In this document: piece after piece, positions 4,898-60,799 of the stretch
Position numbering within the stretch: the stretch's first letter is position 1
How the letters are laid out: each line of letters starts with the position of its first letter
Program-made: the position numbers and the translations under genes
From: Sipunculus nudus
Taxonomy: Eukaryota > Annelida > Sipuncula > Golfingiida > Sipunculidae
Reading direction: 5' to 3'
Length of the DNA: 64,000 nucleotides
Assembly (NCBI GenBank): GCA_026874595.1
Contig: CM049306.1
Location: 4,478,019 to 4,542,018 of the forward strand
The notes under the pieces: generated by a model
What the model saw: the letters and a program-made list of their open reading frames with translations, nothing else
Database searches by the model: none
What the model was told of the DNA's origin: nothing

Positions 4898-5152
4898 AAC
4901 TAGGGACCCATGGGTCTCAACGCTCCTGAAGCTGAATTTGTCTTTAAGGTAATTTTTAGTGAAATTTTTCAGAATGACTGTCCTGTGACCTTAACCAATG
5001 ACCTTGTGACCAAGAAATCTTATGACTTATTATCCTTGAACTTGTAGCATTCAGATTATTGTAACAATCTTTTAAAGTGACCTTGACCTCTGACCAGGTA
5101 ACCTCAAAATCTACATATTTCCTCACTTTGGGCAAGTAAGCTGAGCTAAAAA
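4898..5152 (+). mobile_element. A0: short divergent family-A element
   Basis: It starts with AACTAGGGACCCATGGGTC, a variant of the family-A 5' end that contains the palindrome GACCCATGGGTC. It finishes with AAGCTGAGCTAAAAA, a variant of the family-A 3' end. The interior has several 'TGACCTT' words. It lacks the full 3' hairpin and the ACGG microsatellite, so it is either an internally deleted copy or an old relative. Confidence 0.6.
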
Positions 5153-5288
5153 TTAGAACCATGACAATTAAATCAAAATATGTGAGAATTTTCATACAGG
5201 GTTACTATGGCTGTATTAGTAGGTTGTTATCAAGAAGTCATTTATGGTTAAATACTTTGCTGTCAGATGAGACAGTTCCTTGAAGACT

Positions 5289-5496
5289 GATAATAACAGT
5301 GTTGTAAAATTCAGCTGATAGTAACAGTGTTGTAAAAGCCTGCTTATAATTACAGTGTTGTAAAATCCTGCTCATAATAAAAATGTTGTAAAATCCTGCT
5401 AATAATTATTGTTGTACAATCCTGACCTCACAACAACAGTGTTGTAAACTCCTGCTCATAATAAGTGTTGTAAAACCAGCTCATTATAACTTTTGT
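5289..5496. repeat. degenerate minisatellite, ~26-29 bp unit (left block)
   Basis: About seven to eight imperfect units follow the pattern CTGCTCATAATAACAGTG then TTGTAAAAT. The array stops exactly where element A1 begins. The same unit resumes at 14687, directly after the end of element A2. Confidence 0.85.
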
Positions 5497-5751
5497 AACA
5501 AGGGACCCATGGGTCACGGTGCTCAGCTGTTATATATGATAAAAAATATGATTTGGGAAAGAGGCACAAGCTGGTTTTGTGTGGTAATAAATATAAGCTT
5601 TATTATGAGTTGTTGGTGTTTAGCTTATGTATGATTTTGATAGTATCTTTGGAGACAGGGAAGAGGATTGATTTCATTTATTTTATTAATAAATGGAGTG
5701 CTATTGTCACACAGATTTTGACTTGGCCATATAGCTTATCAGCAGCACATT
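5497..5751 (+). mobile_element. A1: 5' fragment of a family-A element
   Basis: It begins AACAAGGGACCCATGGGTC and then GCTCAGCTGTTATATATG. It matches the first ~255 bp of A2 (7646) and A4 (9917) closely, including the block AGGATTGATTTCATTTATTT. The match stops near 5751, before an A-run and unrelated sequence. No 3' end follows, so it is truncated. Confidence 0.85.
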
Positions 5752-7645
5752 TAGGCAAAAAAAAAAAACTCTTGTTTCCGGTCACCTGACTGACCCTAAT
5801 TGTTCCAGCCGACTCAAAAGTTTTTAGAGTGATTTGTATGCCAAAATAAGCAATAAATACATGCCTTCTTAGAATAAAAAAGTGTCCCAATTTTCCCGCC
5901 AGACTTTTTGGTGCAGATTTCCGCTATAATTATTCTTAAGAAAAAGCGCTCTCGGTATTCCCCGTCAGGCTGACGTTTGCTAAGAGTCGCCGCACAGGAT
6001 AAAGTTTATTGACACATTTGATATTTCAAAAGTTCACCACTGTTAAATATGCATGCTTCTAGAAGCTTCTCTTTTTCTTGACATGTAATTGTTGTAATTT
6101 ATGGCAGCTTATGTCAGGTTGCCTTATTATATAATATGAAGAGTCTATTCTAATAAATGACCCACAATGTCTCTGACGTAACTGGTCAAATTTCCTCATT
6201 TGCCGACCTCCGTGTATCTTCGCTTGACACGTGTCGCTGGAGGTCCAGGCTTATATATGTGAAGTCGAGGCTTTCAAGTCCGACCGTCTGGTATTAAACG
6301 AGGTAGATCTTACGTTGACAGACACGCGAATATACCAATACTACTGTCAGAGTTTTCTGAAAAAAAAACTTGCACCGACCAATTACGAGGGGGGGGGGGC
6401 ATTTCATTCGGCAAAGGTTAAGCAAAATACGTTTTGAGCGTATGATTTTCCTTTCGCACCAAAATATCCTGGACTAAATGTATATGTATGAAAGTTTTTG
6501 CAGCAAAAATGTCTGAATTTCATCTTTCCACCTTACAAGTCACACCTTTCTCAAGTCAAATTCCCCTGCAGTTTCTTTTCTCTCAACTTGGATATTGCTA
6601 ACAGAAGTTTAAAATGGACACGGTCGGCGGTACTGATTTTCACGTCAACTGGTCTAAACAAAGATATTCAGAGATATAAAATGGGCTTGTTTCACCTATT
6701 ACTATATATAAATATAACAAAATATTCCATTTCAACAGTAATATTTGTATTATTTGATGAATTCCCTCGTCCAAGAAGCCACATTGCCAATGGAAACTAC
6801 GCTGTTGTATGCGTTGTCACAAAGAGTACAAGACAGGTAGCGCTCCGGGAGGCTGTTCTGTCCTGTGCGTACACTCCCTTTATTATCTTGAATATTAAAT
6901 TGAGCAGTTGTACGCAGTGTACGATAAAAGGAACAGCCACATTTTTTCCACACCCAAGCTGCATTGCACGAACTCCTGACCTCTCGACAGTTGTGAGTTG
7001 ACGGTAACAGAGCGCCAAGTGACTTCTGGCAAATCAGTGATCTCAAATCCACTTCAGTTTCCCGCGAAAATCCACATGGTAACTTCGGATATTTCTAGTC
7101 AATTCAGTTAACCGGCAATATTTTTAAATGCGCCCTGGGCAAAAGGAAGTGACCTGGTGACATTAATGATGTGTCAAATAGATTAAGTGACGATCATGAC
7201 CACAGGCAATCTGTGCGAAATTTATTAGATTTTCTGATCTTTCCTTGAAAATTCCAGATAGTACAAACTTTATGCTCAGAAAATGATTAAGAATAGTATG
7301 ATAATTGTACTAAATCAAATATAAATCCAAGGAACTCTTTTTGGGGGATTCCATGAATTTAGGGAGTCTGTTTTTCTAATCAAAATAAATACCTACAAAC
7401 AGCGACTAGCAGATCAGATCACATATTTTCACTGGAACCTCCAGGTACACACTGAATTTTTACAATCAAAAGACAACCTTTGGACACTTTTAAAATTGTT
7501 AAGTCCTAGGATGGTTTGGAAGTAAACACATCAATATTTTCTCAATACAGGTGATACAATCATTACAATAAAATGCCATGTTTTAACTAATTTGCAAACA
7601 TCAAATACAATTTATTGCATTGCATAAATAGTTATAATAACCAAT
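5752..7645. other. CpG-richer unique region with the longest closed ORF of the window
   Basis: CpG is visibly more frequent here (about 5880-7090) than in the flanks, as would fit an old promoter or first-exon region. A 167-codon plus-strand frame (6498-7001) overlaps a 100-codon minus-strand frame (6750-7052). Neither shows a domain I recognise, and the overlap prevents a strand decision. A run of G occurs at about 6391-6399. I do not call a gene. Confidence 0.4.
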
Positions 7646-9574
7646 ACAAGGGACCTATGGGTCACGGCGCTCAGCTGTTATATATGATAAAAAAATATGA
7701 TATAGAAATGAGGCACATGCAGGTTTAGTGTGGTAATAAAAATAAGCTGTATTATGAGTTGTTGTTGTTTAGCTTATGTATGATTTTGATAATACCTTTG
7801 GAGACAGGGAAGAGGATTGATTTCATTTATATTATTAACAAATGGAGTACTATTGTCACATAGATTTTGACTTGGCCATATAACTTATAAGTAGAACATA
7901 TGATATTAGAGTTTAACTATTTATTAAAAAAATTACAAATATTGTCCCAAATATAATTTTTATTAAAAATAAAAAGAGAATCGTATGATTTTTAAAAATG
8001 AAATATAACTGAAATGATTATTAAAATAATATTAAAGAATATATTCATGAATGCATTCATGAATACATTTTGAAAGTATTTGCACTGGTATTCATATACT
8101 TTCATTTTTACCTGAATTTCCATTCTTTATGCAAGAAATTTTATAATGGAGTACATATTCATATTCGTATTTAATTTTCAATTGCAAAGTATTTGCACCA
8201 TGTCTGGTATTTATATAGTTTTCACCAAACAATGATATTGAGAATCCAGAATATACATAATTCACACATTTAAATAATGATCATAAGTACCTGGTTTTTT
8301 GGCTTTTATTTATATTAAAAAAAAATAAATGTAATATATTCATTTTGGACTAATTTCACATCAATGTACACATAAGACACAGTAGGAATCTAGATTAATA
8401 TTATCAACTGCATCTTTGTCTATCATTAATTTCCTTCATATGATCCCTAATGATTAGTAATGAATAATATGATTTACTTTTTTATCATTAAAATTGAACT
8501 GAAAAATACTGCATGGTGTTATTTCCTGTTATTATAAACTAACAAATTCCTTTTCTATTTTTCTTTTATTTGTTATTAAAATCAATAACAAGGGACCTTT
8601 GGGTCACTATGCTCAGCTGAAGTTGACCTTGAAGGTAAAAATCCAAAATAATATCAAATGGAGATGCTGTGTAAGAGGAAGAGGTAATAAAGGCCATGAT
8701 TGGTTTATATGATTGGTTTGTATTGATGAGCAAGAAATTGTTGCAAATAATAATTTGTGACCTAATCATGTGTTTCCTAATGTTGAAATTGAAGCATGTG
8801 AGCAGTTTGTGAACAAATGATCTGTAATATTACCATGATCATTAGTTGGCTTTTTGATTAACTGTTGACATTTCAGTAGTTTACACATTTGTTCAATTGA
8901 ATCTATTTTTTGTATAATATATATTATTAAACATAAATGTATTTTTTTTAATGAAATTTATACAGTTGAAATATAACTAATTAACAAAATAAAACAGGGC
9001 AAACAAAGCCTAATCTCAAATTCTGCTGAGGCAGGAAAATAATGAACAAATGTTTGTATTAAATCCTCATTTTTTTATTACATCAATTTTTTTTATTTCT
9101 ATACATTTCCAATATAACATATATATCCGAATATAAAAGTTGATTCATAATTCTTAATTGCATCATCATAAATCTCAATCTTGTCAGATAACACCACATC
9201 ATGCATACAAATGTTTATTTATTTTTTAACCACAAAAATATATCTTTTAAATCTGCAAAACAATAAATATCTTAAAATAATACTTGATTTAGATTTCACA
9301 ATTGTTAAATGTGTCTTTATTTATCCATAATGTGCTTCATATTTTATAAATTTAAGCATACTGATGGGTTCAATTATATTTGTTAAAATCATTTAAAAGA
9401 AAATTGATTTCTTTAAAAATGCCACATTACACAACATTGCATCTTCTGGATTACACCTTGAATTACCTTTTCAAGGAAAGTTTTTGCATATCGGAGTGGA
9501 AACAGCATTACAATGACGGAGATACAGTGAAAACAATAACAATTACTGCATAACACTTGGTGGGTTGGGTTTGC

Positions 9575-9632
9575 GGGGGGGGGGGGGGGGGGGGGGAGGT
9601 GGGAGGAGGGGGGGGGGAGGGGGGTGGTGGTG
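9575..9632 (+). repeat. poly-G tract and G-rich low-complexity run in A3
   Basis: Twenty-two consecutive G (9575-9596) are followed by further G-runs separated by single A or T. A matching run lies at the same place in A5 (18276-18300). The opposite strand gives spurious proline-rich frames. Confidence 0.95.
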
Positions 9633-9916
9633 TGATTGGGATGGTGATATGAGAATAACTGTACACCTGTCACAGGAGGGGATCTCCCCCAGTGACTGTA
9701 ACAAATCAGAAACCCTGGCATAGCTGACTTCCATTGACCTGGAGTGGGACCCTGCATCTGTAATCTGTAATCAAAGCAAATGACTACAACAGAGACTCAA
9801 GAAAAAATCAATAACTAGCCTAATTTTCAAGCTTTTATTTTCAACTTTCAGATTTAAACAAATTTAATATTTATGTTTACATGCTGTGAAAATTAAATCA
9901 ATGGTACAAACAGAAA

Positions 9917-12537
9917 ACAAGGGACCTATGGGTCACGACGCTCAGCTGTTATATATGATAAAAAAATATTATTTAGAAATGAGGCACATGCTGGTTTTGT
10001 GTGGTAATAAATATAAGCTGTATTATGAGTTGTTGTTGTTTAGCTTATGTATGATTTTGATAGTACCTTTGGAGACAGTGAAGAGGATTGATTTCATTTA
10101 TTTTATTAACAAATGGAGTACTACTGTCACACAGATTTTGACTTGGCCATATAACTTATAAGCAGAACATATAATATAAGAGTTTAACTATTTATTAAAA
10201 AAATTACAAATATTGTCCCAAATATAATTTTTATTAAAAATAATAAGAGAATCATATGATTTTTTTAAAATGAAATATAACTGATATGATTATTAAAATA
10301 ATATTAAAGAATATATTCATGAATGCATTCATGAATACATTTTGGAAGTATTTGCACGAGTATTCATATACTTTCATTTGTACCTGAATTCCCATTCTTT
10401 ATGCAAGAAATTTTATAATGGAGTACAAAATCATATTCGTATTTAAATACAATTACAAAGTATTTGCACCATGTCTGGAATTTATTCAGTTTTCACCAAA
10501 CAATGATGTTGAGAATCCAGAATATACAAAATTCACACATTTAAATAATGATCATAAGTAACTGGTTTTAAGGGTTTTTATTTATATTAAAAAATAACTG
10601 TAAAAAATTCATTTTGGACTAATTTCACATCAGTGTACACACTAGACACAGCAGGAATCTAGATTAATATTATCAACTGCATCTTTGTCTAATTTCCTTC
10701 ATATGATCCCTAATGATTAGTAATGAATAATATGATTCACTTCTTTATCATTAAAATTGAACTGAAAAATGCCATAGGTGACTGCATGGTGTTATTTGGA
10801 ATATATGACATTCTACCCATTGATACAAGATTCTTAAATCATCAGTAACTGCAAGTTAATTTCCTGTTATTATAAACTAACAAATTCCTTTTCTATTTTT
10901 CTTTAATTTGTTATTAAAAACCAATAAAAATTTATTAATTTATTGTTTTTTGTTATGTTCTTGGTTAAAACTACTAGATGAGTTGGGTTGGACACCTGGA
11001 TCAACTGTGGCTTGCCATAAGCTGCCTGGATTCCATGTATGCCTCGCCTCAAGCGTGCATAATTTGATGATGGGTCAACAAGGTCAACATACAGGTGACT
11101 CAAGAGGGGCTGGAGAGAGCCAAAGTCTGACAGGGTCTCATAAAAAACATTAATAAAAGCTACAATTTTTGGCCAATTTCTTTCAGCTTTCTAAACTAAA
11201 AAGCTGAAATGCTTATGTGTGCATGATATGAAAATTATATCAACAGTGCTCATGGGAAACAAACGTGCCATGGTCACAGTTGGGCAAAATTTAAGGTACT
11301 AATTTTATATTTATACTAAATAAAATTTGAAAAATTCAGAACTAATTTTGGGTATTCAATTGAACCTTGATTAAATAATGTTACATCCCTGACAAAAAAA
11401 TCTCTAGCTTCAGCAATGCTCTTGTTAAGGGAGTAAATATATTTCTTTATTTTTTACAAAGTGCATTATGTTTGGGCCCATAACTTAAATCAATTACACA
11501 ATACTGACATCATTCTGGCATGTGCATAGAGAATGAAAAATATGTATATTATTTATGATTAAAGTCAGATCAGTGGTTTTGATATTAGGCAGTCTTGAAG
11601 TGTAACAATGGGTTTTTAATGGAAAAATGAAGTTTTTTATTAATATCTCGAATGTCCTAGTGACCAAATTCTTGGCATGGTAGGGCATTTTGGAGACATC
11701 TAACTGTATGCCGAATTTAAGGAACTTAGAGCTGAAGCTGGGGAGCTGAGCTCTTGCAAACTGCATAACACTAGCTTGATGTAAACAATATGTTACATGG
11801 TGCTTGAAAACTTGATTAAAATCTACAGTTTTTGATCAACTGGTTTCAAATTTTTGGTGTTTACAGTTGAAATGCTAACAAAACATGCTGTGAAAATTAA
11901 ATCCACAGTACTTACAGGAAAAAAACGTGCCATGGTCAAAGTTGGGCAAAATTTAAGGTACCAATTTTTTATTTTTATTAATATTTTAAAAAATTTAAAA
12001 GATTTTCATCTAATTTTGGGTATACAATTTAATTTTGATTAATTAAAGTTATATTACTGGAAAAAAGGTCCATAGCATTAACATTTTTTGTGTTAAGTGA
12101 TCAAATATCTTTTCTGATTTTTTACAAAATGCATTATGTTTGGGCCCATAACTTTTTTAAATTAAATAATACAGACATAATTTCTGGCATGTACATAGGA
12201 ACTATATAGAGGAATATTTATGGAAAATATGAGGTAAAACAGATGAGTGGTTTTGAAATTAGACAGTCCTGAAGTGTGAAAATAGGTTTTTAATAAAAAA
12301 TTGAGGTTTTTCCTTAATTTCTCAAAGGAACGAAGCTGCAAACACCCAGTTTTCGGCTTGGTAGGAGATCTTGGGGACATCTAACATTATGCCGAATTTT
12401 GGATTCCTAGGTCTTACGGTTTCAAAACGTGCCACATCTACGGACGGACGGACGGACGGACGGACGGACAGACGGACAGACGACGGATAATGGACCACGA
12501 CTATAGCTCAGATGACTTATAGTCAGCTGAGCTAAAA
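9917..12537 (+). mobile_element. A4: innermost, complete family-A element (~2.6 kb)
   Basis: It has a full 5' end (ACAAGGGACCTATGGGTCAC, then GCTCAGCTG) and a full 3' end (hairpin then GCTAAAAA). Inside are two tandem core units of about 0.66 kb, each containing AACGTGCCATGG (about 11262 and 11924), AAAATTTAAGGTAC and TTATGTTTGGGCCCATAAC. The ACGG tract lies at about 12433-12485. The flanks match A3 sequence on both sides, so this insertion is the most recent of the three. There is no coding capacity. Confidence 0.9.
12433..12485. repeat. (GGAC)n microsatellite near the 3' end of A4
   Basis: Repeated CGGACGGACGG units with a few GGACAGAC variants. Equivalent tracts lie just before the 3' hairpin in A2, A3, A5 and A6, so it is a fixed part of family A. 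Confidence 0.95.
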
Positions 12538-14686
12538 AACGTGCCATGGTCAAAGTTGGGCAAAATTTAAGGTACGGATTTTATTTTTATGCGAATAACT
12601 TAAAAAATTTACAAAATTCAGATCTAATTTTGGGTAAACAATTGAATCTTAATTAAACATAGTAATATACTTGGGAAAATAGACTCTAGTTTCAAAATTT
12701 TTCATGTTAAGTGAGTAAATATTTTTCCTGATTTTTTACAAAACCAATTATGTTTGGTCCCATAACTTAAAGAATTTATACTTAACAGACTTAATTTCTG
12801 GCATGTACATAGAAACTATATAAAGGAATATTTATGGTAAATATGAGGAAAAACATATGAGTGGTTTTGATATTAGGCAGTCCTGAAGTGTGAAAATAGG
12901 TTTTTAATAAAAAATTGAGGTTTTTCCTCAATTTCTCAAAGGAACGAAGTCGCAAAGACCCAATTTTTCGGCTTGGTAGGAGATCTTGGGGACATCTAAC
13001 ATTATGCTGAATTTTGGATTCTTAGGTCTTACGGTTTCAAAACGTGCCACATCTATGGACGGTCGGACGAACGGACGGACGGACAGACGGACGGACGACG
13101 GACAATGGACCACGACTATAGCTCAGATGACTTATAGTCAGCTGAGCTAAAAATTATTTAATTTATTGTTTATTGTAATGTTGTTGGTTAACACTACTAG
13201 ATGAGTTGGGTTGGACACCTGGATCAACTGTGGCTTGCCATAAGCTGCCTGGCTGCCCCAGTGAATGCCTCGCGTCAAGCATGCATAATACAGGTGACTC
13301 AAGAGGGGCTTGAAAGAGCCAAGGTCTGACATGGTCTCATAAAAACATTAATAAAAGCTACAATTTTTGGCCAATTTCTTTCAGCTTTCTAAACTAAAAA
13401 GCTGAAATCCTTATGCGTGCATGATATGAAAATTGTATCAACAGTGCTCACAGGAAACAAACGTGCCATGGTCAAAGTTGGGCGAAATTTAAGGTATTAA
13501 TTTTATATTTATACTAATAACTTATAAAATTTGAAAAATTCAGAAATAATTTTGGGTATTCAATTGAATCTTGATTAAATAATGTTACATCCCTGACAAA
13601 AAAAACTCTAGCTTCAGCAATCCCCTTGTAAAGGGAGTAAATATATTTCTTGATTTTTTAACCAAGTGCATTATGTTTGGGCCCATAACTTAAAACAATT
13701 ACGCAATACTGACATCATTTCTGGCATGTGCTTAGAGAATGTATAGAAAAGTGTAACAATGGGTTTTTAATGGAAAAATGAAGTTTTTCGTTAATATCTC
13801 GAAGGTATTAAGTCCTAGTGACCAAATTCTTGGCATGGTAGGGGATTTTCATCTAATTGTATGCCAAATTTTAGGAACTGAGAGCTGAAGATAGGGAGCT
13901 GAGCTCTAGCAAACTGCATAACACTAGCTTAATGTAAACAATATGTGACATGATGCTTGAAAACTTGAATAACATCTACAATTTTTGAACAACTGGTTTC
14001 AAATTTTTGGTGTTGACAGTTGAAATGGTAACAAAAACATGCTTTGAAATTTAAATCCTCAGCAGTTACAGGGAAAAAACGTGCCATGGTAAAACTTGGG
14101 CAAATTTTAAGGTACCAATTTTATATTTTTGCCAATATTTAAACAAATTTAGAAGATTTTGATCTAAATTTTGGTATACAATTTAATTTTGATCAATTAA
14201 AATTGTATTACTGAAAAAAAGTCCCTACCTTTAACACTTTTGGTCTTAAATGACCAAATATCTTTCCTGATTTTTTTACAAAGTCCATTATGTTTGGGCC
14301 CATAACTTTTTTAAATTATATAATACTGACTTAATTTCTGGCATATACATAGGAACTATATAGAGGAATATTTATGGTAAATATGAGGAAAAACAGATGA
14401 GTAGTTTTGATATTAGGCAGTCCTGAAGTGTGAAAATAGGTTTTTAATAAAAAATCGAGGTTTTTCCTTAATTTCTCAAAGGAACAAAGTCGCAAAGACC
14501 CAGTTTTCTGCTTGGTAGGAGATCTTGGGGACATCTAACATTATGCCGAATTTTGGATTCCTAGGTCTTACGGTTTCAAAACGTGCCACATCTATGGACG
14601 GATGGACGGACAGACGGACGGACGACGGACATTGGACCACGACTATAGCTCAGATGACTTATAGTCAGCTGAGCTAAAAATCCGGT

Positions 14687-14864
14687 TAATAAAAACTGTT
14701 GTAAAATTCTGCTCATAACAAGTGTTGTAAATTCCTGCTCATAATAAGTGTTGTAAAACTAGCTCTTTGTAACAGTTGTAAAAATCCTGTTTGTAAAAAC
14801 TGTTGTAAAATCCTGCTCATTATAACAGTGTTGTAATATCCTGCATATAATAAGTGTTGTAACA
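14687..14864. repeat. degenerate minisatellite (right block), same unit as 5289-5496
   Basis: Imperfect units containing TGTTGTAAAATCCTGCTCAT begin within about seven bases of the end of A2. The consensus is the same as in the left block. Confidence 0.85.
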
Positions 14865-17285
14865 TATTCTCATGACAATTCTGTCAAATGAAAACAAAAA
14901 TATCTGACTTGAAGACCAAGAAGAAAAATAGAATTCACCTTCTCGTCTCGTTTCAAACTAATAACAATGATTAACCCAGCCTATATCTGCCTAAGCTGTA
15001 GAAAACTGATTTTGTTTTTACAAAAGCAATGCTTCATAAATAAAAATACCCTGTAAGAGAAAAAAAGCCAATAAAACATTTTGTACTATAAGAAATGAAA
15101 GCCGTAGCAGGCTTAGTGACTGATGATATATGTGCATGTATATTTATGTGTAAGGGTTGATCTTGACTAAAACATCAAAGAAATGACATTAAATTGTCAC
15201 ATTTTATTGCACTACCAACTGCAAAGGAGGCATCTTACTGGGAATTTAAAAAAGAGTTAAACTGTTTTCTTTCTTCATTTCTTCATAAGTATTTATCTTC
15301 ATTTTCTAACATATGTGCAAATGAGCAAAATACTGTATCTGATAACATTAACTGATTGATCAAACAATTCAAAAACAAGAACCAGACCCTGCTGGGGATT
15401 ATACCAGGGAACTTTAAACTCAGAAGTTGATGTCCCCCCTCACGAGCAAAACTGTTTTATTAATAATAATGGTAAGTAATAAATATTTTTTGCAACAGTT
15501 AGTACACAACAAAGACCACAACACTAGAAATACTGTTCTTGTTTACCAGTAAGCCAATTTACATCACAATAATTATTAAATTATGAGCAACCAAGTAAAG
15601 GGTGATTATCCACATACTGATGTTATCAGGAAGGAGCCATCATCACCAGCTGTAACAATGTGGCAAGCTTGATCTGCTGTTATTGATTCAATGACAATTT
15701 CCAGGAAATTAATTTCAGACAGTTTCTTCTATATGAGTTAAATTCAGAATTACATGGTAATTTTGCTTAAAGTTAAAGGAATAAATTAAGGTTTGTAAAC
15801 AGATAACTGGCAAAAAAGCATACTGCAAATATGGCTATAAGGGAAAACTGTAATAGTTCTTATGACATGACTCCAGGGCCAAACATTAACACCATAAAAA
15901 ACTTGCTGGAGGTGAATAAAAATACCATGTGGGAAAGTGCACTTGTGATTGAACTTGCCCCCTCTGGTAGAGTAACTTTTTCAGGCCATGCCCTTGGCAG
16001 GGATCACCAAAGTGAATATTAATGATTGAAGATGTTTCACTGAGCAGTGTTTAGAGAGCTCCCTTTGAAACCAAGTCAACACAAAAACAACTTATTTAAT
16101 AAAGGCCGTTTATGATGTGATATCTTACAGGATACAGTGTGCAGCTTAAATGTGATTTGATTTTGTTTACTGAGGTATTACTTTGTTAAAATGAATAAAT
16201 AATATAAATTTTGAGGACCACTTGTGTTCCTGTTAGGACCAGTGATTTTTATAACCCACTTCTACCCTGCTACTCCTGCGTATGTTGATCCCTGAAGGCT
16301 AATATATTGCAAGAGGGGCAACTACAAACCATACCTTGTTAAAGACCACTCACCATGAAGCCTATATGAATCATCAGCTGAGCTATTTTTAGAATGAAGG
16401 CAGGCAGTAATTGACCTTTGCTGATGCCTGATAATAAAATAAAATTTTTAATTGCTAGCACTGCATGCTGCAACATGCATTTTATTCAGATATGAGAAAC
16501 CAAATTTCTGGACGGTCTTCCACAGTGCCCTGTCCAATGTATTATAGACGAGACAAAAATGTAACTCTGAACAGATATCAATCTCATATAAAACCAAATT
16601 TTAAATCTTGAATTAACAGACTTACGCTGCATAATGTTTCCCCTGGAATGTCCAAGACTAAATTTAACAATTCATGCAAGTCACTTGGTACCAACACAAG
16701 TTATTTTGATATAACTTCTCTTTTTCCATGGATGGATTGGAAAGCTTGTGCAGCAAAGGAGTAAAACCAGAGTAAAACTGATTACATGATACTATAAACG
16801 GCTAATGGTCTCCTGCACAGCCCCTGGTGGTCCCTGATGGAGCAATCAATGTAAAATTAAAAGAACAATAATAAAATAAGTAGAGCACACAGGTTTCCTG
16901 AAAAGCCTCTGTCCTGTAACTGCTGACCCTGGAATGGTATTAGTCTACAGACAATCTTATGAACAAGTACAATAGACCATAAACAATTTACTGCAAGACA
17001 ATTATGTCCTAAACATTTTGCAAAAAACAACTCCTTGATTCATAATTTGTATGCTATCGTAAGCTCCAGTCCAGCGCACGTCACAAAGACTACAATGTAC
17101 TTGAGCTTTAGGCACAGCATTCAACAAATAAATATTGCCCATGGCAACATGAAAATAACACAGACTGGGTAGACTTTACCAAGATGTTTTTTTTTTAATT
17201 TTTATCAATAATGACAACAATGTTTAAGCTTAACATCTATCAGTGAATGGTAATGGAACTATCATATATCATACCAGTACAACAA
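14865..17285. other. unique AT-rich sequence, no gene recognised
   Basis: The only ATG frame of note is 63 codons at 15831-16022, with no domain. At 16372-16392 the sequence ATCAGCTGAGCTATTTTTA resembles a worn family-A 3' tip without the rest of the element. Confidence 0.4.
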
Positions 17286-19178
17286 ACAAGGGACCTATGG
17301 GTCACTGTGCTCAGCTGAAGTTGACCTTGAAGGTAAAAATCTAAAATAATATCAAATGGAGATCAAGTGTAAGAGGAAGAGGTAATAAAGGCCATGGTTG
17401 GTTTATATGATTGGTTTGTATCGATGAGCAAGAAATTGTTGCAAATAATATTTTGTGACCTGACCATGTGTTTCCTAATGTTGAAACTGAAGCATGTGAG
17501 CAGTTTGTGAACAAATGATCTGTACTTTACCATGATCATCAGTTGGCTTTTTGATTAACTGTTGACATTTCAGTAGTTTACAAATTTGTTTAATTGAATC
17601 TATTTTTTTGTAAAATATATATTATTAAATATATGTGTATTTTTTTATGAAATGTATACAGATGAAATATAACTAATTAACAACATAAAACAGGGCAAAC
17701 AAAGCCTGATCTCAAATTCTGCTGTGGCAGGAAAATAATGAACAAATGTTTGTATTAAATCCTAATTTTTTTATCACATCAACTTTTTTTTAATTTAAGT
17801 TTATATTTCTATACATTTCCAATAAAACAGATACATCTGAATATAAAAGTTGATTCATAATTTTCAATTGCATCATCATAAATCTCAATCTTGTCATATA
17901 ACACCACACCATGCATACAAATGTTTATTTATTTTTTACCACAAAAATATATCTTTTAAATCTGCAAAACAATAAATATCTAAAAATAATACTTGATTTA
18001 GATTTCACAATTTTCAATTGTGTCTTTATTTATCCATAATGTGCTTCATATTTTATAAATTAAAGCATACTGATAGGTTCAATTATATCTATTAAAATCA
18101 TTTAAAAGAAAATTTAAAAATGCTACATTAACACAACATGGCATCTTCTGGATTACACTTGAATTACTTTTTTAAGGAAAGTTTTTGTATATTGGAGTGG
18201 AAACAGTGTTACAATTTAGGAAATACAGTGAAAACAATAACAATTACTGCATTACACTTAGTGGGTTGGGTTTCCGGGGGGGGGGGGGGGGGGGGGGGGG
18301 ATTGGGGTGGTGATATTAGAATAACTGTACACCTGTCACAGCAGGGGGTCTCCCCCAGTGACTGTAACAAATCAGAAACCTTGGCATAGCCTGACTTCCA
18401 GTGACCTGGAGTGGGACCCTGCATCTGTAATCTGTTATCAAAGCAAATGACTACAGTAGAGCCTAAAAAAAAATCAATAACTAGCTTAATTTTCAAGCTT
18501 TTATTTTCAAATTTCAGATTTAAAAAAATTAAATATTTATGTTTACATGCTGTGAAAATTAAATCAATGGTACATACAGGAGAAAAACGTGCCATGGGCT
18601 AAATTTAAGGTACTGATTTTATTTTTATGCTAACACCTTAAAAATTTACAAAATTCAGATCTAATTTTGGGTAAACAATTAAATCTTAATTAAACATAGT
18701 TATATACTTGGGAAAATAGACTCTAGTTTCAAAATTTTTCATGTTAAGTGAGTAAATATTTTTTCTGATTTTTTAAAAAGTCTATTATGTTCGGGCCCAT
18801 AACTTAAAGAATTCATACTTAACAGACTTAATTTCTGGCATGTACATAGGAACTATATGGAAGAATATTTATGGTAAATATGAGGAAAAACAGATGAGTG
18901 GTTTTGATATTAGACAGTCCTGAAGAGTAAAAATAGGTTTTTAATAAAAATTTGAGGTTTTTCCTTAATTTCTCAAAGGAACAAAGTCGCAAAGACCCAA
19001 TTTTTCGGCTTGGTAGGAGATCTTGGAGACATCTAACATTATGCTGAATTTTGGATTCCTAAGTCTTACGGTTTCAAAACGTGCCACATCTACGGACGGA
19101 GGGACGGACGGAGGGACGGACGACGGACAATAGACCACGGCTATAGCTCAGATGACTTATAGTCAGCTGAGCTAAAAA
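17286..19178 (+). mobile_element. A5: complete, uninterrupted family-A element (1.89 kb)
   Basis: The 5' end is ACAAGGGACCTATGGGTCAC, then GCTCAGCTGAAGTTGACC. The interior follows A3 closely, including the G-run at 18276-18300, TACACCTGTCACAG and AACTAGCTTAATTTTCAAGC. One core unit (AACGTGCCATGG at ~18588) leads to a GGAC/GGAG tract (~19094-19125) and the 3' hairpin ending at 19178. It serves as the template showing that A3 was split by A4. No long reading frame exists; the 128-codon minus frame at 18209-18595 is a poly-C/proline artefact. Confidence 0.9.
18276..18300 (+). repeat. poly-G tract (25 G) in A5
   Basis: A homopolymer at the same position as in A3, 0.99 kb from the element start. 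It could form a quadruplex when single-stranded; this is inference. Confidence 0.95.
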
Positions 19179-22479: not shown

Positions 22480-22922
22480 AACTAGAAATTCTTGGCGTGG
22501 CAGAAGCCATAGTATCCCCAGACAGGTAATCCCACCCCAACCCTGTTTAAGGATAGGCCCCCCATCTTCAGCACCATATATGTGTCAGTATATATACTGA
22601 TACCTGACAAATTACCATGGTTTCTTCCATAGATCTTTCAAATTGAGAAACAATATTTTTCACCAAATATGGGAATATTCAAGGTCAAGGCCACTCTCAT
22701 AGGAAGGTTCATGAACCTTATTTAAATATTTGTCACCACACAACCCATATCTATGTACATATGCATAACATGAAAGAAATCTGTCCATTAGTTTTTGACT
22801 TATAATGTTCACAGTACTGTCATGTGGCAATGATGGGGGTATTAAACATGACAACAATATTCAAGATCTTTGGTCAACTTCATTTTTGTATCAATCCATG
22901 CAAGGTTTCTCGAGATATTTAA

Positions 22923-24989: not shown

Positions 24990-25232
24990 TTAAGAATTGG
25001 TGTGATTTTCTCCAAAATGAACCTATTCAAGGTCAAGGTCGATCTCCTAGTAAAGGTCATGACCCCTTTTTAAATAGGCTTTGTCCTCTCATCCATATCT
25101 ATGCACATGTCAAGTTTGGTAAAGATCCGTGAAATATTTCTTGAGTTATCTCACCTAAAAGAAATCTCTGCACGGTGGCAGCGTGACCGTGCCTACAACA
25201 TTTATCCTGACTTTGTCTGGGAATACAATTAT

Positions 25233-26110
25233 TGAAATAAATAACAGTTAACAGTGACTACATCTGGCTCCAATTATTGACATGAAATGCCAATCATCCC
25301 TGGAAATGTCAAAACCCACCTTCATTTATTTATTTAATATATTCTTTATTAGTCATGCTTTCAGTTGTTATTGGCATGACTCTCCAGGCTGATTGGATTG
25401 CCTCAAGCAAAATTAGGAATAAAATGACAGATTGAAGTATTCTATTGTATACTGTTCAGGTAAATGATAAAGTCCTGACAATAAAACAAGAAATTAATTA
25501 ATCTGCCTGCATATGAATTAATGTTAAAGGTGATCAACAAAGAGACTGAAAGGCCACCTGCTCATCCTCCCACAGATTCCCTGATCACGGCAATGCCTCG
25601 TTACAGTCATAATCTATATCCTAATGCATGCTATGCTCATAGCTTGTAACATATTTTATTTACTTATAATACTCCTGCTTCACACCATTTATCTAAAATT
25701 TCTTATTAATCCAAAATTGAAACTTAGAACTGAAAATTAGAAAAGTATGTATAGAAATTCATCTGATTCCAAGCAAATGTGTAAAGTTTAGCAGGGATAA
25801 GTGAGGCATATTATGTAAATGTATTTTACATGGTACATTTATTAAATTGGTGGAAAATATACCTGGTAACAAAAATGTTATTGAAAAAGTTCATTTTCGG
25901 CTTATTTAATAAATTTGTGTCTGTCAATACCTGATAATGTCCAGTATTTGGCAATCATTGGGAATTCTTGGAAATCATTTATCTGAACAATAGTTCATTG
26001 GAACAAAACCTTGTCCCCTAAGCTTTTCAGATGAGCGATGCTCTACTGTATTTCAAGGACTTGTGCAAATTAAGTAATGTGTCGTGATGATATATTAACA
26101 ACAACCAGTT
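25233..26110. other. no gene recognised
   Basis: Unique AT-rich spacer between B1 and C1. Nothing supported. Confidence 0.4.
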
Positions 26111-27842: not shown

Positions 27843-28170
27843 TATGTATATGCATTGTTATGGATGACGGGTTACCATATAAGATATAACATGCAAAGTT
27901 CTAAATATTAATTATACTTATCCCTTTAAACATATTATTCATAATAAAGTAATCATTAAACACACACACAAAATATGTGTGTCTATCAGTCTGTCTGTTT
28001 GCTTGCTTGTTTGTGTGACTGTGTACAAGATTTCTCTGAAATTCTATTTTATTTCTGGGGAACTGGACAACAAGATGAAGAGAAAGGATTACATTTACAA
28101 TATTCTGTACATCTGTTCCCAAGAATAACCACTAGTAATGTCACCTAGTGGCAGAATTAAGTATAATAAA
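27843..28170. other. 328-bp spacer between C1 and C2
   Basis: AT-rich, with a short CA run near 27961. No gene or element end is visible. Confidence 0.5.
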
Positions 28171-44879: not shown

Positions 44880-44880
44880 A

Positions 44881-49484: not shown

Positions 49485-52400
49485 AACAAGGGACCCATGG
49501 GTCACGGCACTCAGCTGATCGTGATTGGACTATAAATGTTTCTCCACTGTGATACTATATCGAGTCGATAAAGCTTATGAATATCATGTACATGTTGGGC
49601 TATTATAAAGGAATGTAATGTAATATGTGAGTAAATGATAAATGAAATTACCTGACTGATGGATTAATAGTCAAATAAAGTGGTTTATTTTTTTATTTAT
49701 TTAGGAGGGGTTGAAAATTGTGATAAATTTGAGCAAATATGAATGCAATGACAGCAGTAATAAGCAGTAGTAGATGATAAGGCTATTTGTTGAAGGATCT
49801 AAAGTGTATGGTAGTCTGCAAGCGTTCAATTTGACAGATATGATGTTATGATTAACTATGCTGATGAAGTGATTTATGAATATGTGACTGTATGACACAA
49901 TATCTCTTTAGTCTTGACAAGGTACATTATTGTGATGCCCACTATGTCTACATATTACACAATATTGACATAATTTCTGGCATGTACATAGGTACCTATG
50001 GACGAATAGTTATACAAAACATTAAAGTATGAATATATCTGATTCATCTTGTTCTTGCTTACTGAGGCTGACTTTGGGATGGGGTTCGAAGAAGGGAAAA
50101 GTGAGGGCAGCACGAAGGTGGATGTAGAAATATTCTATTGTAATGTTTTTCATTTATATAAGAATATGAAAAGCTAAGAGGAAAGGGGCCCTCCTACTTG
50201 GTTATAGTAAAGTTCTAAATATATGATTGCAAACTAATACTCTGACAAGACTGTCATGAAGAAAAACAGTAAAAGTTTTGAGATACTGTGTTGCATATGA
50301 AAATTTACAGATAGACAGGCAAGTGGACAGAATGGACTAATACCTTTATTTCACTTTCAAGAGAATAATGCATTTAAGTTTATATATAATCCTATTTTTT
50401 TAAGCAGATCCACTTTTTCCATTAAGAAGTTTTTATCTGTATCATTTTTTTATTTACAGGTTTATAAATTTTTAATTAAAAAACCTGAAAATATAAGTTA
50501 AAATATTAGAATTGTTGCAAAAGTTGCAATCATTATATATACAGAGTAAAAAACATAGGGTCATATTATGCATACACATATATTTTATTATTTTTAAATC
50601 ATAAATGTTTTAACTGATTTTAAAAGAAAATAATGCCACAACATGGCATCTACAAGAATATTTCTTGAATCACTATTAAAAAGTTTTGCATATTGGAGTT
50701 TTCAGGACATGCTTAATTTTATTCACCAAAATAAAATAAAAGTAAATTTGACAAAATAAAACATCTTTTCAAATAAAGTATACACACTGTTGGTTGAATG
50801 AGGGACAAACAATATCATTGTGCTAATTACTATCCCAGTTTTAATTAATTACTGGAATTAATAGTCAATTTCACACCTGGTGAAGTTTTTACTCTTCTGA
50901 AGTAAGGAATTACTTATCTCATGAACATCCAGACTTTCACAGCAATACACCACTTTGTGGACACAATTAAATGTACACTTTAATCATTGTAACCCTGGTG
51001 GTTCAATACAAAATCTAAAACGTAGCATGTCCAAGAATAAAATAAAATACAGAAAAATTATAACATTCATCTAGTTTATGCACCAGCTGGGGGGGGGATG
51101 AGTGCAGGGCGAGGGGAAGCCTGCTAGTAGTGGCCAAGCTGGGCCAAGGTAAGCTGCCTGGGGTGGGTTACATAATGCAAGTGAAGGCTGTACTACTAGG
51201 TGGGCTAGATGTAAACAACACTTGACATGGTGTGTGAAAACATGAATAAAAGCTATTCATTCCAATCAATTTCTTTTGAAAGTTCAGATTTTAAAAGATT
51301 AAATCCTTATGCATATATGCTGGGAAAATTAAATCAACAGTGCCAAAGTTGGACAAAATTTAAGGTATTGTTTTTTATTTATGCTAATAACTTGAAAAAT
51401 TTGCAAAATTCAGATCTAATTTTGGGTAAACAATTGAATTTTGATTAAATAAAGTTATATTCCTGAAAAAAGGTCTCTAGGTTCAGCAATTCTCATGTGA
51501 GTAAATATATTTCCTGATTTTTTAAAAAATTGCATTATGTTTTGGCCCATAACTTCAAAATAATACTCAATACTGACCTAGTTTTTGGTATGTTCATAGA
51601 AAATGTATAAAAGAATGTGAATACTAAATACGATCAAAAACAGATCAGTGGTTTTGATATTAGGCAGCCTTGAAGTGTAACAATGGCTTTTTTTTTATGG
51701 AAAACAGAGTTTTTTTCCTTAATATCTCGAAGGAACAAAGTCCTAATGACCCAATTTTCGGTATGGTAGGAGATTTTGGGGACATCTAAAATTATGTCAA
51801 CAGCCTGGGGAGCATAGAGATGTGCACTGAATGACCTACAGTCATCAAAGTGGACTGCTTGACAATGTAAGGGAATACAACAAGAGCCTCCAAAAAAATT
51901 CAATAACTAGCCTAATTTTGCAGCTTTTATTTTCAGATTTTAACAGATTAAATCCTTATGTATACATGGTGTGAAAATTAAATCCACAGTACTTACAGGA
52001 AAAAACTGTGCCATGGCCAAAGTTGGGCAAAATTTAAGGTACCAATTTTATATTTTTGCCAATATTTAAAAAAATTTAACAGATTTTGATCTAATTTTTG
52101 GTATACAATTGAATTTTGATTAATTAAAGTTGTATTACTGGAAAAAAGTCCCTACCTTGAACACTTTGGGTCTTAAGTGACAAAATATCTTCCTGATTTT
52201 TTTACAAAGTGCATTATGTTTGGGCCAATAACTTTTTTAAATTATATAATACTGACTTAATATCTGGCATGTACATAGGAACTATATAGAGGAATATTTA
52301 TGGTAAATATGAAGAAAAACCAGATGAGTGGTTTTGATATTAGGCAGTCCTGAAGTGTGAAAATAGATTTCTAATAAAAAATTGAGGTTTTTCCTTAATA

Positions 52401-52635
52401 TCTCAAAGGAACGAAGTCCTATTGACCCAATTTTTGGCATGGTAAGAGATTATGGGGACATCTAACTGTATGCCGAAATTCAGATTCGTAGGTCCAACGG
52501 TGTCGAAACGTGCCAGTCTTACGGACGGACATCCAGACGGACAGACAGACGGACGGACGGACAAACAGACGGACGGACGACGGAAAATGGACCATGACTA
52601 TAGCTCAGATGACTTATAGTCAGCTGAGCTAAAAA
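49485..52635 (+). mobile_element. A6: long family-A element, third 5' subtype (3.15 kb)
   Basis: The 5' end AACAAGGGACCCATGGGTC, then CACTCAGCTG, matches the family terminus, but the next ~1.5 kb (GATCGTGATTGGACTATAAA…) differs from both the A2/A4 and A3/A5 subtypes. From about 51220 it rejoins the family with two core units (near 51300-51800 and 51950-52450), each with AAAATTTAAGGTA and ATGTTTGGGCC-like blocks. A GGAC/AGAC tract lies at about 52521-52580, and the 3' hairpin ends at 52635. No long frame. Confidence 0.85.
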
Positions 52636-52690
52636 CTGACAACCAGCTTTGGCCTCTGCAATGCTATTCACCACAGCTGTTTTGTATATA

Positions 52691-57943: not shown

Positions 57944-58031
57944 CTGAAACGAAATAATACTCAGTTATTACACGGCGTTCAATTAGCATACATTTTGGAC
58001 ATCTGATCGGAAATTCTGTCTTACTTCGTAC

Positions 58032-58047
58032 CTTTTCTAGAACTCAT
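58032..58047 (-). CDS. exon 1 (start codon) of the same minus-strand gene
   Basis: The ATG is at 58047-58045, followed by four codons (MSSRK in all) and one base, then the donor G|GTACGAAGT. The intron to exon 2 is only 88 bp (57944-58031). The in-frame join gives MSSRKVLAIQARKKRSK. The start is supported by the GC-rich, motif-bearing sequence immediately upstream and the absence of an earlier in-frame ATG nearby. The gene is unidentified. Confidence 0.55.
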
Positions 58048-58185
58048 CTTCTGCCAATGCCTGTTCACACAACTGAACCACTTCCGGTACAGCTACGCAT
58101 GCCCGCAATACCGGAAATACTGATGGGATATTGTGCACTTCGTTTGGGTTCAAGTTTGTAGCGTTCGGTTGCTATGGAAATTTTA
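58048..58185 (-). promoter_or_regulatory. TATA-less promoter with ETS, NRF1-like and X-box-like motifs
   Basis: On the minus strand ACCGGAAGTG (58079-58088) is a full ETS/GABP consensus; a second CCGGAAAT lies on the plus strand at 58111. Between them GCGGGCATGCG (58098-58108) resembles an NRF1 site. GTTGCTATGGAAAT at 58168-58181 fits the RFX X-box at 13 of 14 positions. The region has more CpG than its flanks and no TATA box. This fits a housekeeping-type, possibly bidirectional promoter. Confidence 0.5.
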
Positions 58186-59097
58186 CGTGCCAAGTTGTGG
58201 CGACAAATTTGTTTTCGCTGGATATTGCTTGAATGGAATTATTTGTATTGTCGTTACTGCTCAGATCGATGTGTTATGTTAGTTTAGAAGACAGGCATGT
58301 CAGTATTGTGGCCGACTGGTATTAAAAATAGGCCACATTGTATAGTTGACCGCAGCAACCTGTAGCTGCTCGATGAGCGAATACTTCTTTTGGTTGGTAT
58401 AGCGCTGTTTATAGACCTGATACTAAAATATTATGATAGTAGGCTTAATTACACAACTTTTATGTGGTCTATTATAAAGTTTTCTTTTATAAAATATTAA
58501 TGGCTTAATTGTATTAATCACTTTAATTTCGTTTAGCCTACTTGTCATTAACAAACGTTAAATGTTAATTTATAAAAAAAATAATTAAGCTAATAAATAG
58601 GCCTACAAACAGGTCCTTATTAAGACATAAAAGGCAATATTGATTTTAATGTTAAGGTAATACAGTTTTGGCGTTTGATTAAAACAAAAGCATTTGTATT
58701 TAAATATGGATTATTTAACTGTACGGCAGGCCTATCCACATATAGGCCTAAATAGCCGCCGATATCGTCAAAACAGTTTATTATTATTATTATTATTATT
58801 ATTAGGCTACAGTATATTAAGTCTGTCATTGAGCCAGTCAGTAGAAAAAAGTAGTTGAGGAGTCCATTGTCATGGCCGGGAGACCACCGAAACGGAGCTT
58901 TAGGACACTCTGTTCAGCCTGGGTCAAATCAGTATATCTGTAAAAAAAGAAGCTTCAAAGATCGCATGAAGAAAGTTCAAACAACCAGGCTGAAAATGTA
59001 ATTCGCTATAGGCCTCTAGCCTATGGGTCATTCTCCGAAAAAACGTCCCATATTTCAGGTACAACATCTAAAAATAACTTAAGTCTAACATGGAAAT
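58186..59097. other. intergenic sequence with a (TTA)n tract
   Basis: A (TTA)n microsatellite of about eight units lies at 58780-58804. No frame with a domain is present. Confidence 0.5.
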
Positions 59098-60799
59098 AAC
59101 AAGTGTACAATGGGTCATGACGCTCAGCTGACTGGGAAGAGATTCGCAAAAGGAAATTTTATCATCTGAATCGTAGTATATACCCATTCAGCTAAAGCAT
59201 CAAACAGATTAACCAACAGGCCAAGATTGTGTCTGTATTTATATCTCAAAAATAGAGGAAAAATGCGTAGGCCTAAACTTAAAAAAATACAGATGGCTCC
59301 ATCAGTCTGCAGAAACTAATAAAAACACTTAATGGTCAATATCCATGCAAAGAATCATGGTAATTTCTGCATAGTAGTTCAGAACTTCAGATACTTCAGC
59401 TTTTGTATCAGATCTTCCATTATTCTGAGGGAGACTTCGGAGTCCCGTAGCTTGAAGTATATGTAATGGGTAATAGAGACCTAATTTCAGGTTTCCACGG
59501 ACACTTTTCATGGGCCTCTTTGCATGACAAGAATGAAGATTCTAGGTCCAGTTGTTACAATTTGTGCCGCGTTAACAGATGACAGCATCCTTAAAGGTCT
59601 CAAAAATAGAGGGAAAAAAATCGAAAAATTGAATAAAATATAGGTGGCACCAACAGTCTGCAGAAACTGATGAAACACTCTATAATCAGTATCCATGCAA
59701 AGAATCATGGTGATCTCTGCATTAGGTGTTCAGATACTTCAGCTTTTGTATCAAATTTTCCATTATTCTGAGGGATACTTCGGAGTCCCATAGCTTGAAG
59801 GATATATGGGTAATAAAGACCTAATTTCAGGTTTCCACGGACACTTTTCATGGGCCTCTTTGCATGACAAGAATGAAGATTCTAGGTCTAGTTGTTACAA
59901 TTTGTGCCGCGTTAACAGATGACAGCATCCTTAAAGGTCTCAAAAATAGAGAAAAAATTCGGAAAATTGAATAAAATATAGGTGGCACCACCAGTCTAAA
60001 GAAACTGATGAAACACTCTATAATCAGTATCCATGCAAAGAATCATGGTGATCTCTGCATTAGGTGTTCAGATACTTCAGCTTTTGTATCAAATTTTCCA
60101 TTATTCTGAGGGATACTTCGGAGTCCTATAGCTTGAAGGATATGGGTAATAGAGACCTAATTTCAGGTTTCCACAGTCACTTTTCATGGGGCTCTTTGCT
60201 TGACAAGAATGAAGATTCTAGGTCTAGTTGTTACAATTTGTGCCGCGTTAACAGATGACAGCATCCTTAAAGGTCTCAAAAATAGAGAAAAAATTCGGAA
60301 AATTGAATAAAATATAGGTGGCACCACCAGTCTAAAGAAACTGATGAAACACTCCATAATCAATATCCATGCAAAGAATCATGGTGATCTCTGCATTAGG
60401 TGTTCAGACACTTCAGCTTTTGTATCAAATTTTCCATTATTCTGAGGGATACTTCGGAGTCCTATAGCTTGAAGGATATGGGTAATAGAGACCTAATTTC
60501 AGGTTTCCACGGACACTTTTCATGGGGCTCTTTGCTTGACAAGAATGAAGATTCTAGGTCTAGTTGTTACAATTTGTGCCGCGTTAACAGATGACAGCAT
60601 CCTTAAAGGTCTCAAAAATAGAGAAAAAATTCGGAAAATTGAATAAAATATAGGTGGCACCACCAGTCTAAAGAAACTGATGAAACACTCCATAATCAAT
60701 ATCCATGCAAAGAATCATGGTGATCTCTGCATTAGTTGTTCAGATACTTCAGCTTTTGTATCAAATTGTCAATCATTCTGAGGGATACTTCGGAGTCCT
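59098..60799 (+). repeat. A7: family-A-like 5' end joined to a 336-340 bp tandem array (~4.6 units)
   Basis: The left end AACAAGTGTACAATGGGTCA then GACGCTCAGCTG is a diverged family-A terminus. The array follows: GTGCCGCGTTAACAG recurs at 59564, 59904, 60240 and 60576 (spacing 340, 336, 336). Each unit also has GGTGGCACCA and GGATACTTCGGAGTCC. The last unit stops abruptly at 60799 (GGAGTCCTA). There is no 3' hairpin or microsatellite. The 64-codon plus frames at 60064 and 60400 are copies of the repeat. Confidence 0.9.

Follow-up and report, generated by a model that had tools for sequence, protein, structure and literature searches.

Repeat families with the anatomy of Helentron-derived HINEs in the genome of Sipunculus nudus

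The window analysed here is a stretch of 64,000 nt from Sipunculus nudus (GCA_026874595.1, CM049306.1:4,478,019-4,542,018), and positions below are window positions unless stated otherwise. It holds copies of three repeat families, A, B and C, and of a fourth type, D, and every copy listed is on the minus strand:

4898..5151, minus strand: family A, degenerate and short, with the HINE 3' end at 4898 and the 5' subTIR near 5147
5497..5753, minus strand: family A, 3' end fragment
7644..14676, minus strand: family A HINE, split by 8587-13149
8587..13149, minus strand: family A HINE nested in 7644-14676, itself split by 9914-12534
9914..12534, minus strand: family A HINE, innermost nested copy, microsatellite at 12440-12487
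17284..19174, minus strand: family A HINE, uninterrupted, gives the empty site for 9914-12534
17285..17317, minus strand: example of the A 3' subTIR, palindrome and end
19144..19174, minus strand: example of the A 5' subTIR and IR hairpin
22480..25233, minus strand: family B HINE
26111..27846, minus strand: family C HINE, 280-bp core at 26323-27614
28171..29783, minus strand: family C HINE, 280-bp core at 28258-29523, (GCG)n at 29689-29730
32215..35168, minus strand: family B HINE, 336-bp core at 34044-35004, (CGG)n at 35099
35205..36500, minus strand: 3' end of a family C copy, core units divergent, position of the far end uncertain
37061..38055, minus strand: family C HINE
49485..52631, minus strand: family A HINE
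59098..60800, minus strand: type D, with an A-type 3' end and a tandem core of 336 bp that carries GGTGGCACCACC; no 5' end found in the window

The terminal sequences named in the original prediction are all present in the window: GACCCATGGGTC at 4905, 5504 and 49492 in family A, with variants in the other A copies, TGGCACC-GCA-GGTGCCA at 32229 in family B, and GTAGTCG..CGACTAC at 26124 and 28184 in family C, with a damaged copy at 37074. Beyond the fragment 5497..5753, no A-like match was found in 5754-7643. The element 7644-14676 measures 2,470 bp without its insert, compared with 2,621 bp for 9914-12534.

Read on the element strand, families A, B and C have the same order of parts. A run of T at the 5' end is followed by a subterminal inverted repeat (subTIR), which forms a hairpin with an adjoining inverted IR, and then by a microsatellite and a tandem core; the 3' part consists of the second subTIR, a short palindrome, CCCTTGT or CTAGT, and a host T. 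The subTIR is thus an inverted repeat near both ends that is inverted once more as the IR of the 5' hairpin, and it reads GCTCAGCTG/CAGCTGAGC in family A, GTATTGCCAGAC/GTCTGGGGATAC, with mismatches, in family B, and GTATCCGC/GCGGATAC in family C. The 5' ends read TTTTAGC or TTGTAT, and the 3' end is CTTGT in family A and CTAG in families B and C. The core unit is 280 bp long in family C and 336 bp in family B and at 59284-60800, and the microsatellite arrays in the window are (ACGG)n and (GCG)n.

Folding of one copy per end as single-stranded DNA, against 200 shuffles, gave z scores of -5.3 (A), -3.6 (B) and -7.0 (C) for the 5' subTIR and IR hairpin. The 3' palindrome folds with z -3.5 in B and -2.6 in C, whereas in the A copy it folds no better than shuffled sequence (z +0.7); because 147 of the 200 shuffles fold at least as well, the A 3' tip is a short palindrome and not a strong hairpin. 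The order of motif, core, microsatellite and second motif described earlier was seen at the places given for all three families, and so was a strong hairpin at one end, but strand and ends had been reversed: what was called the 3' hairpin is the HINE 5' subTIR with its IR, and the palindrome at the supposed 5' tip, which forms a hairpin in B and C only, is the HINE 3' palindrome. The motif paired at both ends is likewise present; it is really the subTIR, inverted and inverted anew in the 5' hairpin. The fixed start AAC(A/T)AG does not hold: the A's in front belong to the host at an A|A (that is, T|T) target, and at 7644 the copy has ATACAAG instead.

This order of parts is that of HINEs, for which the available text of PMC4067079 defines the anatomy and gives a T-rich target without modification. 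In oyster HINEs, the left end holds the 5' subTIR, the IR and a microsatellite that is often GTCY, GTCC or GTCK, and the right end the 3' subTIR and a palindrome (PMC7492417, in the part available). Families A, B and C and type D are therefore very probably HINEs, the non-coding derivatives of the endonuclease-encoding rolling-circle transposons called Helentrons.

The insertion sites agree with this assignment. Empty sites with the target T|T and without target duplication were found twice for family A and once for family C. The innermost copy 9914-12534 lies within an A copy whose uninterrupted relative is 17284-19174, and the two sides of that interrupted copy, 8587-13149, match the relative at 89% and 92%. 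The copy 8587-13149 in turn lies within another A copy, for which 9914-12534 serves as the relative. At the third site, a C copy lies within a Helentron on C5 that was compared with a copy on C13. Of 18 copies fetched, 16 carry a T right after their 3' end (A 7/8, B 4/5, C 5/5). The TT target of HINEs is seen in all three families, in B as judged by the flanks alone. Target-site duplications, named in advance as a sign against the HINE-like affinity, are absent from these two A sites and one C site. The array 5287-5490 / 14677-14862 was considered as a third A empty site and rejected; the 5497 fragment accounts for its left junction and the 7644-14676 element for its right one.

The ends of all three families occur genome-wide far beyond chance. 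Family A has 30,866 3' ends (15,440 + 15,426, at most one mismatch) and 30,027 5' ends (14,815 + 15,212) in 1.43 Gb, and the 3' ends of C and B number 4,342 + 4,271 and 2,450 + 2,498, respectively, at most two mismatches being allowed. The reversed patterns gave 0 matches in each of these searches (A 3', A 5', B 3' and C 3').

The families had been described as unrelated-looking, which does not apply to B and C. Both carry 5' TTGTAT, GATACTATG, 3' TCTAGTT and the core motif GGTGGCGCCACC, and the 5' end of C aligns with one 5' end of B at 79% over 43 bp (E 0.002). The window holds 16 exact copies of GGTGGCGCCACC against 0.0003 expected by base composition, although, as parts of tandem units, these copies are not independent of each other. 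By sequence, B and C are related to each other, and type D combines A-type ends with a core that carries a variant of the B/C core palindrome.

A search for Rep/helicase elements with the same termini gave a partner for family A and none for B and C. The genome has 143 Helitron_like_N matches, and 32 of them, in samples of 2, 10 and 20, were read downstream; for the 30 loci of the two larger samples, reading was confined to the stretch between 3.9 kb and 6.9 or 6.1 kb past the Rep start. At 8 of the 32 loci, Rep is followed by an A-type 3' terminus. Within the 30 loci, nine such ends occur in eight loci on the ORF strand, compared with two ends in two loci on the opposite strand; none was seen at the two further loci, and at one of the eight (C8:29795282) the end is degenerate. 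No B or C 3' end occurs in the stretches read after the 32 Rep matches. In a group of long ORFs on C11 and C8, the motifs of A, B and C ends are likewise absent from the 5.3 kb or so that follow the ORF.

The C17 element, at one of the eight loci, has both ends. Its ORF of 2,342 aa matches PF14214 (7.5e-28) and PF05970 (5.1e-23), and the C-terminal match to PF03372 (2.9e-5, 24.4 bits) is just below the cut-off of 24.5, so that it comprises a Rep, a PIF1 helicase and a marginal endonuclease match; in the C-terminal part of the C11 ORF the endonuclease match reaches 6.2e-14. Domains beyond Rep were checked in these two ORFs, C11 by its C-terminal part alone, and this small number of partners limits the confidence in the HINE reading. 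An A-type 3' terminus lies 993 bp past the C17 ORF, and two A-type 5' ends lie upstream on the same strand, the inner one common to C5. Since the match between C17 and C5 begins only about 100 bp inside the outer 5' end, it is the motif, rather than a homology break, that defines the outer boundary. The C17, C5, C9 and C1 copies have the same terminal motif and then diverge. Over the last 60 bp, four window A copies match seven partners at 68-80% (80% for one copy, at most 78% for the other three), so most A copies may stem directly from elements outside the sampled partners; the D copy reaches 92% against the second A-type end at the Rep locus C3:10575424. The 80% subfamily rule given in PMC4067079 is thus reached, over these 60 bp, by one A comparison and the D copy only.

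From what is known of the class, the Helentron Rep would act in trans and nick at the HINE termini, peel off one strand, with the 3' palindrome read as a stop signal, and join that strand to the target at T|T, after which host replication would complete the new copy. The original prediction raised the idea that A, B and C may share or compete for one helper. That three non-autonomous families share a helper which recognises their common design rather than sequence would fit the common order of parts, the single orientation of the window copies and the end motifs common to B and C. It is nevertheless improbable, because the partners found have termini of the A type, bearing the subTIR and palindrome of that family, and the absence of B or C 3' ends after the 32 Rep matches gives a single helper no support; moreover, HINE families are distinguished by their subTIR in the literature (PMC4067079, as far as available). 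B and C probably answer to another helper than A, which may be among the 111 remaining Rep matches or beyond the stretches read.

Pearl-like elements were originally classed as cut-and-paste MITEs. The short inverted repeats near both ends would suit such elements, and so would the negative Pfam result for five ORFs of the window; the absence of target duplication at all three empty sites (two of A, one of C) and a partner of the Rep/helicase type leave this origin barely conceivable. Canonical Helitrons begin with 5' TC, end with 3' CTRR and insert at A|T. The ends of B and C do fit in part, with a palindrome 11-12 bases before the end and CTAG followed by T, but A ends in CTTGT, the 5' ends read TTTTAGC or TTGTAT and not TC, the 5' end carries a subTIR and IR hairpin, and the T|T target at the A and C empty sites refutes a canonical Helitron, which is thus very unlikely. 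The HINE assignment accommodates the anatomy, the empty sites, the T at 16 of 18 ends and the coding partner of A.

The order of parts common to the families is therefore a known one, that of DINE-1, oyster Cg_HINE and pearl-like elements, read on the opposite strand. Cg_HINE of Crassostrea gigas is alike in its 5' subTIR and IR, GTCC-type microsatellite, satellite-like central repeats, 3' subTIR and palindrome, TT target without duplication, and related ends with unrelated cores, the likeness being one of anatomy and not of sequence (PMC7492417, available part). DINE-1, HINE-Mo and the Helentrons share the class anatomy, the T-rich unmodified target and a Rep/helicase/endonuclease partner with common termini, while host and sequence differ (PMC4067079). 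Pearl and DTC84 of bivalves resemble the present families, by description of anatomy and not by sequence, in being modular with a short central-repeat array (PMC5139131, PMC7492417); a conserved palindrome lies close to the repeat junction of DTC84, and the B/C core units carry GGTGGCGCCACC, though the two palindromes may not correspond.

Copies up to 100 kb apart tend toward one orientation, across families too. This result has no control transposon family, since a candidate control repeat of unknown kind, with 405 + 445 copies, is too rare for neighbour pairs. Within inferred gene spans, 9 of 10 copies are sense to the gene, a count from few genes and likewise without a control transposon. 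The mismatch-tolerant listing of A 3' ends omits 6 of 35 exact matches below 5 Mb, all six on the minus strand, and was therefore left out of the orientation counts; the listings of C 3', B 3' and A 5' ends may be incomplete likewise, but exact searches by themselves give the same picture. Megabase replication-fork domains, suggested by the incomplete listing, were rejected; the correlation spans about 100 kb, and fork direction may still contribute. A T-rich strand was also rejected as the cause: within the window, read on the element strand, TTTT/AAAA stand at 495/514 inside and 584/417 outside the elements, far from 9:1. Poly(A) signals do not differ consistently between sense and antisense in the counted A, B and C copies; in D, AATAAA occurs 0 times in sense and 6 times in antisense.

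It is conceivable, if doubtful, that members of different Helentron-derived families insert into genes in the same sense as transcription. Such a bias would be expected if Rep inserts into non-template single-stranded DNA (e.g., in R-loops) or at gene-codirectional forks, and selection against antisense copies would give the same pattern.

The strand and class of these repeats are now fixed, and family A, with about 30,000 ends of each kind, is a very large HINE family. It is also tied by common termini to coding elements, a link absent from the oyster study, in which, by its own account, none of 10 autonomous elements could be connected to a Cg_HINE (PMC7492417). If the sense-strand bias of several families holds, the choice of target strand in rolling-circle transposition would be testable from genome sequence alone.

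The three HINE families A, B and C of the window, with their palindromes, cores and microsatellites, lie where the original prediction had placed them; the window corresponds to C1:4478019-4542018 in an assembly of 1.43 Gb and 153 contigs. All listed window copies of A, B, C and of type D (A-type ends with a tandem core) share one direction. In the published accounts, as far as these were accessible, a HINE consists of a 5' subTIR, a complementary IR, a microsatellite, central repeats, a 3' subTIR and a palindrome, and inserts into TT (PMC4067079; PMC7492417). This order is obtained when the window copies are reverse-complemented; the elements had therefore been read from their 3' ends, and the earlier strand and end assignment has to be inverted. 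On the element strand, A reads TTTTTAGCTCAGCTGACTATAAGTCATCTGAGCTATAG ... (GTCC)n ... core ... CAGCTGAGCNNNNTGACCCATGGGTCCCTTGT followed by T, B reads TTGTATTGCCAGACATAGTCTGG ... GTCTGGGGATACTATGGCACCTGCGGTGCCAAGAAATATCTAGT followed by T, and C reads TTGTATCCGCC..GCGGATAC ... GCGGATACANGTAGTCGCTTGTCGACTACCCGTATTCTAGT followed by T. In folding, the 5' hairpins are clearly more stable than their shuffles (200 each), with z of -5.3 (A), -3.6 (B) and -7.0 (C). A palindrome or hairpin had also been described at the supposed 5' tip, which is the HINE 3' palindrome; here B and C fold better than their 200 shuffles, but A does not.

Two clean A empty sites (relatives without the insertion) are present in the window. 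In the first, 9914-12534 lies within the A copy 8587-13149, and the uninterrupted relative is 17284-19174; in the second, 8587-13149 lies within 7644-14676, with 9914-12534 as the relative. The junctions read A next to A on the + strand, corresponding to T|T in element orientation, and no target duplication was seen by eye at either site, with a few flank mismatches at the first. A 28-bp array that at first resembled a third A empty site is no longer counted as one. For C, the empty site comes from a C copy that lies towards the 5' side of the Rep-coding Helentron on contig C5 and is missing from the C13 Helentron; inspection by eye shows its flanks meeting at T|T, and they differ to the degree expected for these two Helentrons. 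No empty site was found for B. T directly follows the 3' end in 16 of the 18 fetched copies: 7/8 for A, 4/5 for B (two of the five with mutated ends) and 5/5 for C (two with an identical flank). A C-type HINE occurs within the 5' part of both the C17 and C5 Helentrons (~1.35 kb in C5), on which it seems to ride as a passenger. In the window, a stretch of 1.9 kb that follows an A 3' end (5754-7643) has no A-like or sampled-Helentron match; it resembles a B copy over a single segment of 39 bp (79%).

A search for an element coding for Rep and helicase with the same termini had been proposed. Such an element was found for A on C17, where an ORF of 2,342 aa carries Helitron_like_N and PIF1 and, at its C-terminus, a marginal endonuclease match. 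An A-type 3' end lies 993 bp downstream of this ORF, and two A-type 5' ends in the same orientation lie upstream of it. Of these two, the outer end, its boundary set by motif and not by homology break, has TTTTTAGCTCAGCTGACT in common with HINEs, then GTCC-type repeats. Helitron_like_N has 143 matches in the genome, and the sequence downstream of Rep was read at 32 of these loci (batches of 2, 10 and 20). A-type 3' ends are on the ORF strand at 8 of the 32 (9 ends, one degenerate) and on the opposite strand at 2 (two ends). No B or C 3' end was seen in these stretches, and no helper of B and C was found there. At the A-type loci besides C17, the domain test covered Rep only. The C17, C5, C9 and C1 copies all extend to CAGCTGAGCATYATGACCCATGGGTCACTTGTT and diverge beyond it, C17 and C5 being 98% identical as far as this motif. 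A second partner lineage, to which C7 belongs together with the first of the ends at C3:10575424, has CCGTGACCCATGGGTCCC and matches the A copy 17284-19174 over ~150 bp at 79-80%, located 150-300 bp inside that copy's 3' end. On C7 there are two copies at a distance of 209 kb; they remain similar past the end and resemble a segmental duplication. Identity between four A copies of the window and seven partners is 68-80% in the final 60 bp, and the window D copy matches one partner at 92%.

B and C have common end motifs and a common core palindrome, GGTGGCGCCACC. Type D is represented in the window by:

59098-60800, - strand: a 336-bp core carrying GGTGGCACCACC, joined to an A-type 3' end

D-type cores also follow A-type 5' ends in two stretches inside genes (L084, L088). 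Since A-type ends stand on D cores in both settings, HINE ends and cores are interchanged between types; a similar mixing is described for oyster HINEs in the available part of PMC7492417. The GGTGGCACCACC of the D core (window, L084, L088) is a variant form of the palindrome in the B and C cores. Other window features are a 129-bp inverted repeat (84%) with CTACCAGTAGAA-like units between C-type pieces (35426-36328), a tandem array of a 36-bp unit with GATCATGTGATC palindromes (40825-41195), a repeat of 209 bp with a ACGTTACCTTTAGTAACGT palindrome (61816-62249) and a 136-aa lysine/arginine-rich open frame without Pfam match (62574-62984, +).

Genome-wide, 15,440 + 15,426 A 3' ends (<=1 mismatch) were counted and, with <=2 mismatches, 14,815 + 15,212 A 5' ends, 4,342 + 4,271 C 3' ends and 2,450 + 2,498 B 3' ends; the reversed-pattern control gave 0 matches in every search. 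Copies <=100 kb apart tend toward the same strand, across families too (C1:0-27 Mb). Among 157 exact A matches (two variant searches, C1 below 27.46 Mb), same-strand pairs number 34/37 (<20 kb), 27/34 (20-50 kb), 47/57 (50-100 kb) and 51/101 (100-200 kb), and 74/86 neighbours <=100 kb agree, which 0/5,000 shuffles reach. When zero-mismatch C and B among the matches listed are added (273 copies, C1 below 25.6 Mb), the values are 15/16 (<5 kb), 59/72 (5-20 kb), 79/108 (20-50 kb), 141/192 (50-100 kb), 88/157 (100-150 kb) and 49-58% (>200 kb). Cross-family pairs among the matches listed agree in 4/4, 30/37, 44/61 and 87/117 cases over the first four of these ranges; for neighbours <=100 kb the count is 75/104 (0.0002 of 5,000 shuffles), and beyond 5.2 Mb it is 59/87 (0.0022). 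C-C pairs <=100 kb beyond 5.2 Mb do not show this tendency (16/34 agree among the matches listed). Also among the matches listed, C shares the strand of the nearest A 5' end <=100 kb away in 18/21 cases (C1:0-7 Mb), and 39/40 A 5' ends in C1:0-1.15 Mb are minus (runs test z -5.3); exact A searches there give 15/16 minus. These pairs are non-independent and the shuffles leave segmental duplication out; the mismatch-tolerant A 3' listing omits 6/35 exact matches below 5 Mb of C1, all six minus.

Orientation was also compared with that of genes, which were inferred from same-strand runs of Pfam matches, no gene models being used. The sequence read comprised eight stretches flanked by exon matches in five myosin genes, plus three flanked by matches in other inferred genes; the count took in only A-, B-, C- and D-like copies:

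C2: one B, sense
C13: three (A, D, A), sense, the first two nested; a 32-bp antisense match was excluded
C8: one B, sense
C16: one A, sense; one D, antisense
C4: one A, sense, between PDZ matches separated by an 80-kb gap, which may not be a single gene

No A-, B-, C- or D-like copy occurs in stretches L081, L082, L086, L089 and L091; L086 seems to hold one HINE of another family. Many of the contigs C61-C90 have PDZ matches in long frames with identical scores, and we would guess that these may be bacterial sequence in several copies.

Among the matches listed, two of 20 inferred C1 gene spans contain a copy, both B and both sense. In total, of the 10 copies that fall within inferred gene spans, 9 lie in the sense direction (two-sided 0.021, assuming independence); counted by gene, six are sense only and one is mixed (0.031 for 6/6). 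Outside the spans, within <=50 kb, 8 copies have the same and 1 the opposite strand among the matches listed, and the A 5' listing adds one opposite copy (4635311, minus), 30 kb from a plus-strand I-set match at 4665768. A bias of HINE copies inside genes to the sense strand is suggestive rather than settled. No preference of Helitrons or Helentrons for the sense strand of genes is reported in the titles and abstract openings searched, and main texts may hold one. The nearest known behaviour found is that of bacterial IS200/IS605 elements, which, in the part of the account available, favour the lagging-strand template, so that their orientation follows replication (PMC5371812).
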